A stretch of 64,000 bases of DNA. It comes from Sphingobacterium paucimobilis HER1398 (lineage in GTDB: Bacteria > Bacteroidota > Bacteroidia > Sphingobacteriales > Sphingobacteriaceae). The position numbers and the translations under genes are program-made. The number at the start of each line of letters is the position of its first letter. Positions within the stretch are counted from its first letter, which is position 1. Shown here piece after piece: positions 43,378-52,816 of the stretch. The notes beneath the pieces were generated by a model that worked only from the letters and a program-made list of their open reading frames with translations, was not told the DNA's origin and ran no database searches. The DNA lies in contig NZ_ATDL01000007.1 of NCBI RefSeq assembly GCF_000416985.1, positions 124,001 through 188,000 on the forward strand. The letters run 5' to 3'.

Positions 43378-43901
43378 TACTGTTGCTAAAATGAGTTAAT
43401 ATGAAAGGTGTTCCTTGTGAGGAACACCTTTTTTTATACTAAAAAGGCTAATTGACAACATATCAGGATATATTTTGTTACAAAGTACATTGATTTGATG
43501 TGGTGTGCGGTATTGTGTCGGAATGCTTGTTTTTGCTGCTTTTTACAAGTTTAAAAACGTAATTCAACCGATTGATTGGTGTTGTTTGTGCGTTATATTG
43601 CAACTTTTATTTTATTTTGTTAAATAAAATGCAAGATTATAGAATATTAATCGCTATAATTGTTGTAACCAAATTATGATGATATGTGTGTCGGTAGTGC
43701 AAACATATTTGGCTGATTAATTTATACACCTAAAATCAATAAGTTTATGAAGGGATGATTAATTCCTGTTTAGATTATTTTCTAACCTAAATAAATATGT
43801 TTAGTAATAGCGAAGCATAAAGGAGTTCGTCTTTATTTCATAACGAGATTTGTAATAAAGCAAGTTATGATGTTTAACCATTTATTAAAAAGAAACCAAT
43901 C
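43378..43901 (+). promoter_or_regulatory. Terminator and long leader before a SusCD operon
   Basis: The stretch begins with the terminator at 43404-43435. The rest is A/T-rich. Two segments recur upstream of the NamZ operon: TTTTTGCTGCTTTTTACAA (about 43530-43548) and GTGCGTTATATTG (43588-43600), followed by a T/A run. They could be shared promoter or leader elements. TATTTTG at 43613-43619 resembles a Bacteroidota -7 element, but its spacing to the nearest TTG (43586-43588) is 24 bases, longer than usual. No ORF was supported. Confidence 0.35.
43404..43435 (+). terminator. Intrinsic terminator after the SRPBCC gene
   Basis: AAAGGTGTTCCT (43404-43415) pairs perfectly with 43420-43431 around a TGTG loop, and the T-run extends to 43435. 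About 50 bases around it recur, with changes, at 50523-50573. Confidence 0.85.
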
Positions 43902-46900
43902 ATGAGGAAATCGATGTTATTTTCTGTGGTAGGAGTGGCATTAGCTATTTCACCTCAATTTTCTTATGGAACGCCAAGCCGAATGATCGGAAAACCGTTA
44001 CTTCTTCTAGAGGGATCCAGTTTTACCAACACCGTTCTCCAACAAACGGTTAAGGGGCGCGTTTCAGGGCCAGCAGGTCCTATTGCAGGGGCCACAATTG
44101 CCATTGTTGGCGGAACGGTAGCAACAAAATCTGGGCCAGATGGGAGTTATTCTATTCAGGCACCTATAGGTTCTACGTTACGTTTTAGTTCTGTCGGATA
44201 TCAATCTAAGCAGGTGGTTGTGTCTTCCAGTTCTTTGTCCGTCAGGCTTGAGGAAGGATCCGGTGATATTGAAGAGGTAATGGTGACGGCAGAGTTTGGA
44301 ATGAAACGCGTTGGTCGTGCTATAGGTTCCTCTGTGCAACAGATTGACGGTGCGACAATAAGTGAGTCGGGAAGAGAAAATTTTATTTCTGCATTGGCCG
44401 GACGTGTACCAGGGCTTAATGTAACCTCAACAGGAGGTTCGCCTGGTTCTTCTTCAACTGTTATATTGAGGAATATTACCTCGATATCGGGCAATAACCA
44501 ACCGCTGTATGTTGTGGATGGCGTACCAATGAATAATTCTACGTTTGATCCTTTGAGTGGAATGGCGGGTGGTGGAGTAGACACCTACTCCGTCAATAAC
44601 CTGGACTTTGCGTCTCGAGGCAGTGACTTTAATCCAGAAGATATAGAGTCTATTACTGTTTTAAAAGGAGCGGCGGCAGCCGCTTTGTATGGATCTGATG
44701 CGTCTAACGGAGCAATTATTATCACTACAAAGAAAGGTAAAGCAGGGAAAGGAACGGTTACTTATGGAAACTATTTTAAATGGGATAAAGCGTATGGCTA
44801 TCCAGATATGCAGACCAAATATGCCAATGGTAATTATGGCACGACCAATTACTATAATACGGCACGGTTTGGTGGACTGTATCCAGACGGTATGAAACTG
44901 TATGACAATATCGGTTCGATACTGCAGACGGGTACACAGCAAAGGCACAATATTTCTGTTGATGCTGGTACAGAAAAGGCGACTATACGTGCTAGTTTTT
45001 CTCAGCTGAATCAGGATGGAGTGTTGAAAACTACTGGATATGATAGAACCAGTTTGAGTTTGGCTGGGCAGGCTGCTGTGACTCCTTGGCTTAAGTTTGA
45101 GGGATCTATGCAATATACCAAGATGGGGAACGATAAGGTTTTGAGGGGTACCGACGGTCCTCTGTATAGAGCGATGTTATGGCCTGTCGTTGATGATATG
45201 AGCAACTATCTAGCGGCCGACGGAAGCCATATGAGAAAGCCGGATTATTATGTCGACGAAGATCTTTTGAACCCACTTTTTGCGATGTACAGGAACAAGT
45301 TCTATGATAAGTCGGATCGGTTTTTGAGTAATATTGCTATGAATTTAACACCTATCCAGAATATGTTCCTTCGTGCACAGGTAGGTTGGGATGTGGGTAT
45401 GCAGACCTTTGAGACCTCTACACACCCCTATTACTATAATAAAAATCTAGGAACTGGCCAATATAATTTAGTACAATCCAATTTTTCAGACCCTACAATC
45501 AACATTCTTGCAGGATATAACAACAAGTTTTTGAACGAAAAACTTTCGTTCTCTGGGCAGGTAGGTTATCATCAGATGGAGAACGGGGTGACACGTTCGG
45601 CAATGAATGGTACAGATTTTACCGTGCCTGACTTTCAATCTATAAATAATACAAATCCGCTTACACAGACAGGGACACAGCGGAATACCAAACGGCGTAT
45701 ACAGGCGCTTTCTGCCCAGATGGAATTTGGATATGATAATATTGCCTTCATTACTCTCAGAGGTCGTAATGACTGGTCTTCTACCTTGCCAGTTCATAAT
45801 AATAGGTATTTTTATCCAGCAATTGAAGGCTCCTTTATTTTGTCAGATTTAGAATTTATGAAGGCTATCCCTGCGATTAACTACTTGAAGTTAAGAGGTT
45901 CTGTGGCGCGTGTAGGTAAAGATGCTGGTCCGTTAGAGATTGAGCCACAGCTTGAGAATAGCGAATTGTCTGGAGGAGGTTTTCTTTATGGATATACAGG
46001 GCCAAACCCTAATCTGAAACCCGAGATGACGACTGCCCACGAGGGAGGTATAGATTTAAGGATGTTCAATAATAGAGTGAATGCTAGTTTTACTTATTTC
46101 GGTACAAGAAATGCGGATCAGATCGTTAAGGGGTTTCGTCTGAGTTATGCAACAGGATTCGTATTGAATACAATGAATGTAGGGTCGTTTAAAACCTGGG
46201 GATGGGAAGGGCATATCGATGGAGATATTATTAAGAAACCAAATGGTTTGACGTGGAATTTAGGGGTCAATGCTTCACAAGGAAAGTCTAAGGTTCTTTA
46301 TCTTCCAGATAATGTCACAGAGTATTATAACCCTTATACATGGATTTCCGGGAATGTGCGAAATGGTATTATGGTTGGAGAGCCTATTACAACATTAACT
46401 GGCCGTGCTTATGAGAGAAATGATAAAGGAGATGTGCTGATCAGTCCGGGTACAGGTCTTCCAATTACAAAAGATACTTGGTCGGTTATTGGCGATCGAG
46501 AGCCGAAGGTACGGTTTGGCATTACGACATCGTTGACCTATAAAGATATTCGCCTCTCTGGTTTGTTTGCTGGTCGTTTTGGTGCTACAGTAATCAATGG
46601 TACGAAACGGACGATGATGACCAATGGTACAAGTTGGGAGTCTGTAAATCTCAGAGAAAGTGGTTCTTACGTTTTTAATGGTGTTTTGAGGGATGGAAAT
46701 GAGAATACAGAGAATCCTACGCGTAATAATATTGCTGCTGATTTCAATACCTATGGTGCTACTATTTTCTTGGGGGGTGATGAAGACTGGTTAGAGAAAA
46801 ATGTGAATTATGTCCGTATGCAAGAGTTACGCCTTTCTTATCGAATACCTAAGAAGGTTTTGAGCAAAAGCAGAATTATCTCAGCGATGGATGTTTATTT

Positions 46901-48868: not shown

Positions 48869-49735
48869 ATGAAAAATCTAAATATACTATTAATAACTTT
48901 GGTCTTTTCCCTCTTTGTGACGAGTTGTGAAAAACATGTTGTCGAATATGATACTGTGAAAGTTGATGAGGAGACCACAGCACAATTTCAACTTTTTTAT
49001 ATGGTTCCGGTGACTACTGGTACTGCAAATAACATCAATAAAGTTGAATTGAATAATGAGCTTTTGACAAATGAAACTACGCCATTGTCAGCTTATAATT
49101 TCATACCCAGTGGGGCCGTTGGTAAGTTTTTTGTAGCCAAACCGGGTAAAGTAAATTTAAAGCTACATAGAGGGGCTATCACCAATTTAACATTGGCCTA
49201 TGACCAAGATTTTGAACTGCCGGCAGGTAAATATGTTGTCGTGATCCATGATTTTACAAAGCCTCCGGTGTTTATCAAGAATGAAACTCCTTATCCTTCG
49301 GTGACGACCGAGTTTACAGGAAGTACAGCCTGGGTAAAGTTTTCTAATTTTCTTTATGAGAAGGCCGGAGAGCCTACTACCTTGAAGTTGCAATATCAGT
49401 TTCAATACACTGTAGACAATGCCACAGGACAGAAGAGTGATTGGGCGAATGTAGGTAAACCGGTAGCTTTTGGTGAAGCCACTGGATGGGAGCCCCTCCC
49501 TGTAAACAAAACGGTTGAGATTTCTGCTGGAACAGCACGGATCGATTATCGTATCCGGTTGATCGGGGCTGATGGTTCGGATCAGGGAAGCCTGAAGGTA
49601 AGAAATGCTGCCGGCAATACGGTAGATTATTCGGACTGGTGGAATGCCACTATTGGCCGTATTAATCATCATATGTTGGCGGGTTATCGTGCTGCGACTC
49701 CAGTAGCATCGATGAAGCAGTTAGGGGTTTTATAA
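48869..49735 (+). CDS. Surface lipoprotein in SusE position, DUF4397-like features
   Basis: A 288-residue lipoprotein with lipobox Cys at residue 20 (FVTSC). The middle shows repeated beta segments similar to DUF4397-type proteins: ELNNELLTNETTPLSAYNFIPSG, GKVNLKLHRG and DFELPAGKYVVVIHDF. No catalytic motif is present. It follows the broken SusD by 45 bases and ends in a strong bidirectional hairpin. A role in ligand capture next to SusCD is the simplest inference, and its fate may depend on whether the SusD is functional. Confidence 0.6.
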   Translation: MKNLNILLITLVFSLFVTSCEKHVVEYDTVKVDEETTAQFQLFYMVPVTTGTANNINKVELNNELLTNETTPLSAYNFIPSGAVGKFFVAKPGKVNLKLHRGAITNLTLAYDQDFELPAGKYVVVIHDFTKPPVFIKNETPYPSVTTEFTGSTAWVKFSNFLYEKAGEPTTLKLQYQFQYTVDNATGQKSDWANVGKPVAFGEATGWEPLPVNKTVEISAGTARIDYRIRLIGADGSDQGSLKVRNAAGNTVDYSDWWNATIGRINHHMLAGYRAATPVASMKQLGVL

Positions 49736-49746
49736 ATTTATTCAAT

Positions 49747-49776
49747 AAGAAAGGAGGTGCTAGCACCTCCTTTCTT
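49747..49776. terminator. Near-palindromic 30-base hairpin between convergent genes
   Basis: A 14-bp perfect stem (49747-49760 with 49763-49776) around TA carries A residues on one side and T residues on the other. It can terminate in both directions, between the + lipoprotein and the - membrane-protein gene. Confidence 0.75.
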
Positions 49777-49843
49777 AAACAAGTGATCACTGGTTGCTAA
49801 AAAGAGAATGGTTATTCTGGGGTAGCGATGGATTGTGATCATC

Positions 49844-49869
49844 ATTTTGCTCTGTGTGAAGAGCAAAAT
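49844..49869. terminator. Second hairpin between convergent genes
   Basis: ATTTTGCTCT (49844-49853) pairs perfectly with 49860-49869 around a 6-base loop. It lies just past the stop of the minus-strand membrane protein gene, which it most probably serves. Confidence 0.6.
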
Positions 49870-49886
49870 TTTAATAAATTGCTTTA

Positions 49887-50405
49887 CTAATCTTTGTTCG
49901 TCTGGTAAAAATAAGTGCTGATCTGGCTAGAAAAGTAAATCATGGCATAGGCCAAGATAATCTTTAAGGCACTGGTCTCCACATTTGTAAGGTCGAAGCT
50001 TTTGCTTGGATCGTTGGCCTGCACTAATCTTATGTACTTGACGGTATTGATAATGAAATCTGGAAGATGGAGAACAATTACGGTGATGCCTATGATTACT
50101 AAAGCGGATCTTAACATATCTTTCTGCGTGTAGGGCGGGGAGAATTCTTGTGTATGATCATCTCTGTTTTTGATTAGTAGATTGGTTATTGAATCAGATT
50201 TGAACATTAATAGGGCAGCTAAGATCCACTGGATGATTATCGTGAATAATAGGACTCCTATAAAGGAAACGCACTCATCCACTGCGATACTATTGATTGG
50301 AAGAGCAAAATAGAATAATAGTTCCTTGATGGAATTGATACTGTACAAGAAAAGTATAATGCCGATTATTCGGATTGCAAGGTTTAATAAATCAGTTTTC
50401 TTCAT
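49887..50405 (-). CDS. Hypothetical membrane protein, about four transmembrane segments
   Basis: A 172-residue protein with hydrophobic stretches at about 8-35, 45-70, 97-120 and 145-165, separated by short polar loops. Residues 75-95 (KNRDDHTQEFSPPYTQKD) form a charged loop. There is no signal sequence or known motif, and I do not recognise the family. It reads opposite to the SusCD operons. The long gene-free region upstream (50406-51400) holds the 21-bp array. Confidence 0.6.
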   Translation of the reverse strand: MKKTDLLNLAIRIIGIILFLYSINSIKELLFYFALPINSIAVDECVSFIGVLLFTIIIQWILAALLMFKSDSITNLLIKNRDDHTQEFSPPYTQKDMLRSALVIIGITVIVLHLPDFIINTVKYIRLVQANDPSKSFDLTNVETSALKIILAYAMIYFSSQISTYFYQTNKD

Positions 50406-50597
50406 GTTGGATCTTAAGATTTATGGCTGGTTCTGATAAAGATATTGATTTTCGGTGTTACTTTTCGATGCTTGTGGTTTTTGAATGTCCTTTTGGTCTG
50501 TATACTTGTAGAGGATGAACTCTTGCTAAAATGAGTTGATCTGAAAGGTGTTCCTTCTGAGGAATACTTTTTTGTGAACCTAAATTATACCTGGAAG
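50406..50597. other. Gene-free stretch between the membrane protein and the 21-bp array
   Basis: No ORF is supported here. The region 50523-50573 is a diverged copy of the terminator segment at 43383-43435, described as its own feature. The bases from 50556 to 50597 show weak 21-bp periodicity and could be worn outer units of the array. Confidence 0.4.
50544..50573 (+). terminator. Orphan, diverged copy of the 43404 terminator
   Basis: The sequence from TTGCTAAAATGAGTT (50523) through a hairpin (50544-50555 with 50560-50571, wobble pairs) to a T-run closely matches 43383-43435. No + strand gene lies upstream for it to terminate. Confidence 0.5.
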
Positions 50598-51059
50598 GGA
50601 ACGGTTTGTCTCTATAAGGAGCACCTTCTAGCGGTTTGGTGACTCCAAGTTAGCCATCTGTGACACCTTTTTGCAAAGTAGTCATCCCTTTTTGAAAACA
50701 AGATGTTGGTAGTTCACAAAAAGGGATTGCCTTTTAAGAATGAGTAGTCACTTTGCACAAATAAGGAATCGTTTTTTTCGAAAAATGGTTCCATTATTTT
50801 TAAAAAGGTCTACCTAGTTTGGTAGAAGGGGGACCTTTTTAATGAAAAGCATTTCCTTTTTTCAAACAATTGATTACTACTTGCCAAAAAGTAGTTCCTT
50901 GTTTAGAACAACCGATAACTTTGTAGAAAAAAGGGGACGGTTGTTTCAATATAGATGTTCCATTTTAGTAAAAAGGAGTCCCTTTTTACAGATAAGTGAT
51001 TACAAGTTCACAACAAGTGACACCTTTTTCTGAAAAAGGTGTCACTTGTTTTCCAAAAG
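50598..51059. repeat. Degenerate tandem array with an exact 21-bp period (about 22 units)
   Basis: Cut into 21-base rows from 50598, the region keeps its phase for 22 rows with no gap. Column preferences: T at 4, C at 6-7, T at 8-9, T at 11-12 (about 20 of 22 rows), A-rich 16-20, and G at 21 (about 19 of 22). Typical cores are CACCTTTTT and TCCCTTTTT, then AAAAAG at the row end. Rows differ a lot from each other, so the period is old or kept by selection. The pattern yields several hairpins of the form CCTTTTT...AAAAAGG. In one frame it reads as 7-residue repeats (KSISFFQ, KSSSLFR, KRSPFLQ), but stop codons interrupt most of the array, so coding is unlikely. No spacers as in CRISPR. Confidence 0.8.
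51012..51050. other. 19-bp perfect inverted repeat inside the 21-bp array
   Basis: Arms 51012-51030 and 51032-51050 pair perfectly around one central base. The left arm reads AACAAGTGACACCTTTTTC. It would form a very stable hairpin or cruciform, or act as a terminator in both directions. Confidence 0.8.
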
Positions 51060-51400
51060 GGGATGGTTGTCTTGATGTTTTTACAGCAGTATCCCACGAA
51101 GTGTGTAAGCAAACTCGCTTTGCTTGGTAGAGACCTTCTGGTTTTCTATAGATGATGTTAAATGCGGGGGCCAGTACCATAGTTATACTATAGATAGTAT
51201 TAAGAACCTATTAAGAAGGCAACTGCGTGCGAACTGTGCCTTAGGTGCTACAGCCCTGTGTCTAAGGTAGACTCGCTCTCAACACGGAGAGGACTCGGAC
51301 TCAGCACGGATGCAAGGTGCTTTATGTAAGAGTCTAGTGTGTGTTAACTGTAGGGTCCTATCGAAGATGGGGAGTGTAGTTGAGATTATAAATAAGAACT
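51060..51400. other. Gene-free stretch downstream of the 21-bp array
   Basis: Two weak extra 21-base rows may extend to 51101. After that I see only a small inverted repeat ATACTA/TAGTAT near 51190 and no supported ORF, promoter or repeat. Local composition is more G/C-rich than the array. Confidence 0.4.
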
Positions 51401-51736
51401 TTATTTGTTTGCTTGGAGTGATTCAATCAGCGCTGCTTGGCTTTGGATCAATCGCTCTTTATCAAAAATGGAGTTTTCAAGAGTCTTGATTTTTTGAAGG
51501 AGGTCTTGGACCTGAGCGCTAACCACGGGAGCTACTGTTTCCATATTTTTGTAGTAATTGTAGTAGATATCTTCGTTTAGCAATACCGATAATAAAGCGA
51601 CTCTGGACGTTGGGATTTCTTTGGCTGAATAGATATTGGGAACTGATCTTGCCGAAATATGTAAAGCCTCTGCAACAGCTTTATCTGTAATCCCCTTTAA
51701 GCGCACTCTCTCTTGTATAAATTTACCTAACGTCAT
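51401..51736 (-). CDS. Small XRE-like helix-turn-helix protein with C-terminal coiled coil
   Basis: A 111-residue protein. Residues 1-60 resemble a lambda-repressor-type HTH: LGKFIQERVRLKGITDKAVAEALHISARSVPNIYSAKEIPTSRVALLSVLLN, with a recognition helix around SARSVPNIY. Residues 75-110 (VQDLLQKIKTLENSIFDKERLIQSQAALIESLQ) form a heptad-rich coiled coil that should make a dimer or higher oligomer. No ligand domain is present. Immediately upstream (49-98 bases before its start) lies a set of RCGT motifs at 11-bp spacing that would suit an oligomeric regulator, so autoregulation is a natural guess. Confidence 0.75.
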   Translation of the reverse strand: MTLGKFIQERVRLKGITDKAVAEALHISARSVPNIYSAKEIPTSRVALLSVLLNEDIYYNYYKNMETVAPVVSAQVQDLLQKIKTLENSIFDKERLIQSQAALIESLQANK

Positions 51737-52079
51737 TCTTCGGCTTTAATGTAAAACAAAATTCACAAACTTTTCTTATAATAAGCGTGAAGTATATGCG
51801 TTATGTTGACGTGTTTTATACGTTTAATTTGCGTATTACAATTGTATTTTTTATATTAGTGTGTCCGTAGGGATAGGGGCGCGGTGCTCTCTGTAGAAAA
51901 CGATGACCAATTAGAATTAACATGTAATCACTTAAAATATTATCACTAACTGTAAAAATAACCTGTGTTGTTTAGTATGGCCTGAGGCGGTCTCTCTTAT
52001 TGTGGAGACCGCTGGCGGCCTAACTGCGCATAAGGAACATTAGAGGCCTTGTTGGGGGCGCCTTATAAATACACAAAAT
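51737..52079. promoter_or_regulatory. Upstream region of the HTH gene with phased RCGT motifs and a GC-rich hairpin
   Basis: RCGT occurs at 51785, 51798, 51809, 51820 and 51831, that is with start-to-start spacing of 13, 11, 11 and 11 bases. The last four copies are separated by exactly 7 bases each. A second element is a hairpin, GCGGTCTC (51987-51994) with GAGACCGC (52005-52012), extended outward by GGCC blocks at 51979-51982 and 52017-52020. It lies before the small ORF at 52080. Nothing else was supported in this stretch. Confidence 0.5.
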
Positions 52080-52178
52080 ATGGATCTGCTGGACTATCAA
52101 TTCGTACTGATCGCTGTATTGGTTGTCATCTTGACGGCCTGTGGGATTTTCCTGCTCAAGAAGTCCGGAAAAGGATGA
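52080..52178 (+). CDS. Possible 32-residue single-span membrane microprotein
   Basis: ATG at 52080 opens 32 codons ending in TGA at 52176-52178. The peptide starts MDLLDYQF, continues with a strongly hydrophobic run of about 18 residues (VLIAVLVVILTACGIFLL) and ends with a basic KKSGKG tail, an arrangement seen in many small inner-membrane proteins. It runs toward the minus-strand lipoprotein gene, whose stop is 8 bases away. No family is known to me and chance cannot be excluded. Confidence 0.4.
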   Translation: MDLLDYQFVLIAVLVVILTACGIFLLKKSGKG

Positions 52179-52186
52179 CCTTGTTG

Positions 52187-52816
52187 TTAATCCTTTTCAA
52201 AGGATTGTAGATTGCCTTGTTCATCAAAGGATAGGGAATAGCTGCCCCTGGGTGTTCGCAGTGATCGTGGTGACCAATTGATCTTGTCGTTGTAGAAGGA
52301 AAAATAGACGGTAGGGTCACGTTCTTCGCTTTTGATTTCTTTTATTTTCTGTTTCAATGTCGTGTAGACTTTGTTGGCCGTAGCAAAGGAAACTCGGTCT
52401 AAGGGGAACAGCTGCTGATCCAATCGGTCGGCTTTGGTGATACGCACAGGCGTCGGGGTTTGCCACTTGCCTCGTTGGTATACATACCGGTCGATATTTT
52501 GAGGGGTGTCGGGGTTTTGTATGTTGAGTACAATACGGCCATCTCCGAAGAAATGTGCGGACTGTTGTACCATGATGGGTTTTCCGCTGAATTGTGGCAG
52601 CTGGCGTAGGGTCTCTTCCGCGGCTTGTAGGGCAGCGGTACTGGATACTGTTTTAATGACCCGCAGTGGAAAGCTGTTGCTCTCGTTCTGTTCCTTATGG
52701 GCAAGGTCTTGCTGTACTTCTTCTTCAGACTTCAAAGTGTCTCTGATGGATTGTGTAAATGGCTTACAGGACGACAGCAATATAACGGCTATGGGTATGT
52801 ATAATCTGTTTTTCAT
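52187..52816 (-). CDS. Hypothetical lipoprotein
   Basis: A 209-residue lipoprotein with lipobox Cys at residue 17 (LLSSC). Residues 25-55 are charged and probably flexible. From residue 60 on, the body shows alternating strand-like segments such as GDGRIVLNIQNPD, DRYVYQRGKWQ and YFSFYNDKINWS, and ends GSYSLSFDEQGNLQSFEKD, similar in feel to PepSY-like or BamE-like small beta domains. I do not recognise the family. It follows the membrane protein gene at 52836-53819 by 19 bases on the same strand, so the two are co-transcribed and may form one envelope system. Confidence 0.6.
   Translation of the reverse strand: MKNRLYIPIAVILLSSCKPFTQSIRDTLKSEEEVQQDLAHKEQNESNSFPLRVIKTVSSTAALQAAEETLRQLPQFSGKPIMVQQSAHFFGDGRIVLNIQNPDTPQNIDRYVYQRGKWQTPTPVRITKADRLDQQLFPLDRVSFATANKVYTTLKQKIKEIKSEERDPTVYFSFYNDKINWSPRSLRTPRGSYSLSFDEQGNLQSFEKD

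Follow-up and report, generated by a model that had tools for sequence, protein, structure and literature searches.

Bioinformatic analysis of a 64,000-nucleotide stretch of Sphingobacterium paucimobilis HER1398 (the window; contig NZ_ATDL01000007.1, positions 124,001 to 188,000) showed that an array of 23 loosely similar units of exactly 21 bp, at window positions 50584-51066, belongs to a family of such arrays. Many of them sit right after a gene for a small winged-helix (wHTH) DNA-binding protein, which is inferred from sequence alone to bind the units and coat the array. We designate genomes by G numbers (G000 is the genome under study), contigs by C numbers and extracted regions by L numbers.

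The 21-bp array and its unit

The original prediction described rows of 21 bases cut from 50598 that stay in register for 22 units, and this observation was confirmed. The identities at lags of 21, 42, 63 and 84 were 0.485, 0.502, 0.489 and 0.503, compared to about 0.27 in 500 dinucleotide shuffles (z of 9.3 to 10.9), and the column information at period 21 had a z of 29 against 200 shuffles. The predicted columns (C at 6-7, T at 8-9 and 11-12, A at 16-20, G at 21) were as described, although column 18 is only loosely A. A gap-penalised unit search extended the array to 23 units (50584-51066) with no spacing other than 21, and an EM fit placed it at 50587-51069. The units are only about 49% alike, and Tandem Repeats Finder did not list the array. 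In addition, the unit is a degenerate palindrome, AAAAAGGGATNCCTTTTT, which had not been mentioned in the prediction; the correlation of the profile with its own reverse complement was 0.89, and the palindromic consensus of the array is TTtTTnnnAAaAAGggaTncC. Two neighbouring units at 51012-51050 form a 19-bp perfect inverted repeat with a 1-nt centre. A second copy in the assembly, on contig C20, looks like redundancy, since it was 100% identical over the 12001 bp compared and lengths and offsets place contig C7 wholly inside C20.

The array does not have the form of a CRISPR, as there is no constant repeat separated by unique spacers, and the one CRISPR match in an Rfam scan (E 0.88, far below the gathering score) lies outside the array at 51474-51499. 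The Rfam scan of 49700-52200 gave two sub-gathering hits only, one of which overlaps the array end (SSRC34_2, E 0.59). A search of plasmid records returned two 35-bp matches, which we judged to be chance.

A family of arrays with conserved spacing

A DNA search of 93 genomes of the genus Sphingobacterium (own genome included; S. faecium DSM 11690, G024, and S. detergens CECT 7938, G020, are among them) found matches in 7, including a full-length ortholog of the array in the related genome G022 with 93% identity. A 63-bp sequence model, which misses other array types, matched 47 of 93 genomes at E 0.01 or better and 16 of 93 with 10 or more matches, and many of the rest were single weak matches. 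Exact degenerate patterns were also tried and were dropped, since the best matched only 19 of 38 arrays. Of 56 extracted regions, 52 scored as arrays, whereas four (L086, L096, L106 and L108) fell below the threshold of 90; the best score in reversed sequence was 84. The arrays contain 14 to 35 units, most often 28, and of 1262 steps only 26 were not 21 bp, with 39 of the 52 arrays having none. Some arrays are near-identical tandem repeats (G040 and G008), but most have units about 50% alike. Old arrays still keep the same conserved columns, which, we infer, neutral decay of a tandem repeat would not give.

Between the window array and its G022 ortholog, 38 substitutions and no gaps were found in 483 aligned bases, whereas the flanks had 92 substitutions and 21 gaps in 534 aligned bases. 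Between the orthologs L037 and L069, the in-array gaps were 21, 42 (13+29), 21 and 21, plus one of 1 nt. L078/L093 has two 1-nt gaps beside a 21 (17+4), indicating that single-base slips occur, and L034/L100 has in-array gaps of 15+6 and 18+2 and a 1-nt gap near the end. L079/L090/L095 have no gaps in array or flanks and so do not discriminate. Alignments of distant orthologous arrays (for example L034/L083, L085/L101 and L080/L088) hold many small gaps; we took them as unalignable and did not use them.

The array consensus follows the genome more than the locus. Array profiles correlated within genomes (r = 0.57, homogeneous genomes left out, L100 and L038 kept) but not between them (-0.06), a result reached by 0 of 2000 label shuffles. 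Several arrays at the same locus in distant species do not resemble each other, though those of close species do. Copying contributes to this similarity: at one locus G022 carries a copy of another of its arrays (L034/L035, 73% identity over 750 aligned positions), and near-copies exist within G035, G071 and G090. Beside the G022 ortholog of the window array, about 80 bp away, lies a second 21-bp array of another type, TTGATTAATCAA, with 18 units (L033:7542-7919).

A cassette with a winged-helix gene

Arrays in six species start at or near the stop codon of a small, very diverse winged-helix (HTH_17-like) gene, a context that was not visible to the original prediction. A search by that gene gave a strong match (E below 1e-15) in 12 of 93 genomes, and arrays were found in all 12; 6 of 9 loci not known before carry an array directly 3' of the gene. 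In two further genera, 4 of 10 loci do, with L189 (a weak match with a stop) left out of the tally. Nine wHTH loci have no array. Furthermore, several array-bearing genomes (G008, G014, G030, G035, G040 and G084) have no match to the first wHTH profile at E 1e-5, though G008 and G014 hold divergent cassettes. In G110, three wHTH paralogs have three clearly different palindromes, TGACGTCCGTCA-like, CATG-like and CATTGAA-like, all at 21 bp (array similarity of 0.27 to 0.48).

Against HTH_17 (PF12728; gathering score of 27 bits), two of eight wHTH domains scored above the cut-off (27.7 and 29.3 bits), five matched below it and one (L151, own genome) had no match; in another scan of three, two scored 25.3 and 25.7 bits and one had none. 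PHROGs, NCBIfam and PADLOC gave no match that names the wHTHs scanned, and a LuxU hit (E 0.042) and an RT_UG31 hit (E 0.0066) were judged to be chance. A class-wide wHTH search of 395 genomes at E 1e-10 found the own genome only, a family-wide search of 399 genomes found 14 in 3 of 25 genera, and viral contigs held no wHTH relative. A PDB search gave nothing meaningful for the wHTH, and its AF2 model was useless (pLDDT of 38).

Downstream lies a recurring gene set: a 210-aa protein with an fn3-like C-terminus (PHROG minor-tail match, E 3e-6 and 5e-8; PDB matches to fn3 domains) and often a small membrane protein, a CHAP or DUF5675 protein and a lipoprotein (membrane and lipoprotein by eye). 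Three fn3-like hits to the 210-aa family were found in viral contigs. A search by the 210-aa gene matched 40 of 93 genus genomes. Of 30 loci taken from that search, 19 have an array value above the highest of 37 control stretches (0.397); 9 of these were cassettes already known, and thus 10 are new among 18 new loci. We counted only values above 0.397, because our initial threshold of 0.38 was exceeded by 3 of 18 general HTH_17 control loci (0.387, 0.387 and 0.397). At 6 of the 10 new loci an HTH-like ORF of another type abuts the array, whereas L231 is ambiguous and L218, L219 and L221 show none; none was recognised at L247 either. In the class-wide sample, 7 of 395 genomes match, own genome included. 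The other six gave 7 loci from other families, 6 with a clear 21-bp array, two of these lying after the 210-aa gene rather than before it; no wHTH was recognised there, and palindromy is weaker (0.29 to 0.68). The own genome has six 210-aa genes, three with an array just upstream (C19, C14 and C20).

Covariation of arrays and winged-helix proteins

We compared 27 cassettes, in which the array starts -16 to +50 bp from the wHTH stop codon. They were chosen for having an array and an HTH-like ORF, and some are close relatives (L034/L036, L070/L156 and L215/L245), so that the following proportions are conditional. Period 21 ranked first among periods 12 to 40 at 27 of 27 cassettes, and 13 of 650 steps were not 21. 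Palindromy exceeded the 95% quantile of column-order shuffles at 27 of 27 (r of 0.46 to 0.92), including the two weakest, L215 and L245 (0.46 and 0.52). Array sequence differs between cassettes, whereas the 21-bp period and the dyad symmetry do not. The similarity of the wHTH proteins tracked that of the arrays (Mantel r = 0.39, reached by 1 of 5000 shuffles; 0.37 without close pairs), without a phylogenetic correction.

Of 44 dispersed arrays, 13 matched an own-genome cassette best (13 of the 28 for which one was included), compared to a shuffled mean of 2.3 and maximum of 9; for the other 15 of the 28, the own cassette ranked 2 to 26. The composite L038 and L100, which overlaps the locus of L036, count among the 52 arrays but were left out of this comparison and of the dyad, coding and folding analyses below. 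The window array is an exception: it matches the cassettes of G022 and G090 (0.91 and 0.90) better than that of its own genome (0.71), and no wHTH match lies beside it. Its cognate protein may therefore have been lost or replaced in this genome, which is an inference. We also considered that the window array carries the end of a wHTH gene (GATGGCTAA), but this was rejected, since the orientation is wrong and a local alignment found only unit-level similarity.

Folding and coding potential

At positions symmetric about the dyads of the unit, complementarity in 41 degenerate arrays was below within-array shuffles (z of -3.6 and -3.8), which does not fit selection for local hairpins, but in 9 homogeneous arrays it was above them (2.3 and 4.8). 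The window array folds far better than dinucleotide shuffles (z of -6.9 and -5.8), and better than column shuffles (-3.3 and -4.4) and unit-order shuffles (-3.4), as do several relatives of its type and arrays of G020, G063 and G071. Over 28 arrays (L084, L104, homogeneous arrays and arrays with any non-21 step left out), the mean z was -1.9 on the + strand and -1.3 on the - strand; on the + strand, 10 of 28 reached about -3 or lower and 8 of 28 were at -0.3 or above. Pairing of neighbouring cores had a z of only 1.9. We read the folding results as inverted copying between neighbouring units in some lineages, although hairpins or a structured RNA remain possible for this copy.

The window array has 4 to 13 stops in every one of the six frames, although a 63-aa ORF overlaps it. 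Of the same 28 arrays, 23 have no open frame and 5 have one. Some arrays hold long open frames, and stops are mildly depleted (132 versus 171 expected in one frame; mean of the best frame 2.8 versus 4.4).

A proposed model of a phased nucleoprotein ladder

Our preferred explanation, in which we have moderate confidence, is that the window array is a dispersed (satellite) copy of a DNA element whose founder form is a cassette: the wHTH gene, then directly after its stop codon 15 to 36 palindromic units spaced almost always exactly 21 bp, then the 210-aa fn3-like gene and often the membrane/CHAP/lipoprotein set. The geometry, the dyad symmetry, the gene pairing, the diversification of the array with the wHTH and the rarity of small indels are evident from the sequences. 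Binding, in contrast, is inferred: a dimer of the cognate wHTH protein would bind each unit, and the two-turn spacing would put all dimers on one face of the DNA, so that they would polymerise cooperatively into a filament of roughly 0.5 kb. The wHTH family, the dyad symmetry, the two-turn spacing and the matched diversification fit such cooperative binding, and BldC and RdfS show that such proteins form filaments, but on different DNA. Regulation is a guess from gene position and the most speculative part, namely that the filament silences or gates the downstream wall-hydrolase-like genes and titrates its own protein, giving a sharp switch, and that satellites are array copies carried elsewhere by copying or transposition. 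The interpretation in the original prediction was partly supported. Phased protein binding with selection on spacing is its best-supported part, decayed heptad coding is not supported, and terminator hairpins are not a general property of the arrays; the chromosome-organising site that it also proposed remains a doubtful possibility.

Among the alternatives, a selfish or neutral satellite spread by a transposon end and recombination, without host function and possibly including the wHTH, seems unlikely but is the strongest. The near-homogeneous arrays in G040 and G008, the end motif described below, the copying between L034 and L035, and C-terminal wHTH fragments beside L074 and L107 are consistent with it, and these fragments suggest that some satellites derive from cassettes. 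However, old arrays keep position-specific columns and register although their units are about 50% alike, gaps in close orthologs are absent or mostly whole units, and arrays accompany the same 210-aa gene in other families. Function as a transcript or cruciform, with units pairing with neighbours into a chain of hairpins, for example as bidirectional terminators or a structured RNA, is likewise unlikely; the folding of the window array, the homogeneous arrays and the 19-bp inverted repeat speak for it, whereas the low dyad complementarity of degenerate arrays, the weak core pairing, the 8 arrays at a z of -0.3 or above on the + strand and the occurrence of arrays in convergent, divergent and tandem gene contexts speak against it.

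A centromere-like or chromosome-organising array, as in ParR/parC or TubR/tubC, is more doubtful still. Helical phasing, about 25 sites, a single DNA-binding gene alongside founder copies and arrays at several or more places round complete chromosomes are compatible with this reading. However, no actin- or tubulin-like gene was recognised by eye at ten cassettes, nor by Pfam among ten proteins scanned, without a dedicated ParM or TubZ profile; the distribution is patchy (16 of 93 genomes with 10 or more matches to the 63-bp model), several different types occur in one genome, and the few positions known do not cluster at dnaA. Real or decayed heptad-repeat coding (21 bp being 7 codons) is very unlikely, as the stops speak strongly against it at this locus.

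The closest systems differ in several respects. BldC, a small MerR-like wHTH protein, multimerises on repeated DNA of variable length (PMC5859096), but it binds head-to-tail on direct repeats, whereas the units here are palindromic, number 15 to 36 at 21 bp, lie downstream of the gene and differ in sequence per cassette. RdfS, an excisionase-type wHTH protein, also oligomerises on DNA (PMC11963761), but its sites have no apparent consensus motif and serve ICE excision, and no recombinase gene was recognised by eye in the ten cassettes inspected. The ParR/parC, TubR/tubC, pSK1 Par and R388 StbA partition systems (PMC3098194) likewise pair a DNA-binding protein with an adjacent array of phased sites, whereas the present arrays are apparently chromosomal, have many more units and several types per genome, and show no recognised motor gene. 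REP/BIME elements with RAYT (PMC3733652) are dispersed extragenic palindromes with a companion gene, but lack the strict long tandem register of 21 bp and the wHTH gene beside the founder copy. Literature searches aimed at such arrays listed no paper that describes them, subscription papers and preprints not being covered.

It is about as likely as not that Bacteroidia carry an undescribed modular system in which a hyper-diverse winged-helix protein is encoded directly upstream of its own ladder of 15 to 36 cognate sites. In this view, site sequence and protein co-diversify freely while the 21-bp geometry is invariant, so that the filament rather than the motif is selected, and orphan ladders spread through the chromosome under the same trans-factor. 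If so, it would be a natural set of matched protein/DNA pairs with fixed geometry and varying specificity, making the helical phasing of nucleoprotein filaments and the co-evolution of a wHTH protein with its sites directly testable. It could also explain 21-bp arrays whose open frames may be annotated as hypothetical proteins, and it points to an uncharacterised, often multi-copy fn3/CHAP cassette in Bacteroidia.

End motif, flanking features and other repeats

A motif, TATCCCACGAAGTGTGTAA, lies at 51090-51108 (+ strand), 23 bp right of the window array, is also found beside arrays in related genomes and resembles a transposon end. The motif TATCCCNCGAAGTGTGTAA, with one mismatch allowed, was sought in six genomes and found in four, at 11 places apart from the redundant contig: 10 beside clear 21-bp arrays and one (G051, L236) beside a short repeat that we judged an array by eye (per-21 value of 0.38, below our threshold). 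Within 4 mismatches it lies near 13 of 52 arrays. The motif is present at one array end, a partial inverted copy was seen by eye at L240, and an IS256-like ORF lies beside L110, whereas none was recognised near the window array.

The window array is flanked on the left by an ORF of 172 aa (49887-50405, - strand) with no Pfam match, and on the right by an ORF of 111 aa (51401-51736, - strand), which is HTH-like by eye with only sub-threshold profile matches, is conserved beside the orthologous array in G022 and is not of the cassette wHTH type. A perfect 32-bp self-complementary stretch at 49746-49777, after the ORF ending at 49735, is a likely terminator. A repeat of about 55 bp, 89% identical, occurs beside the array (50519-50573) and at 43379-43433, upstream of a gene at 43902 that is SusC-like by eye. 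A dispersed repeat at 51173-51330, with no Rfam match on it, has partial copies (67 to 79%) in G000 at C13:137974, C1:107000, C15:198387, C21:522075 and C14:562990.

Another 21-bp-periodic array, ACTcGTtACtcGTtAcTgGTc, with a near 7-bp substructure, is present in the own genome (L246:98-328, contig C4), far from the 210-aa gene there. In G008, a near-perfect 21-bp tandem array of 27 units, TAGTCAAGAACCCTTTACGGC (L257:4881-5447), lies after a 210-aa gene rather than before it. At L209 (G051, near C1:5044600), a 23-bp tandem periodicity of 0.67 was observed near a 210-aa gene that lacks a clear 21-bp array.
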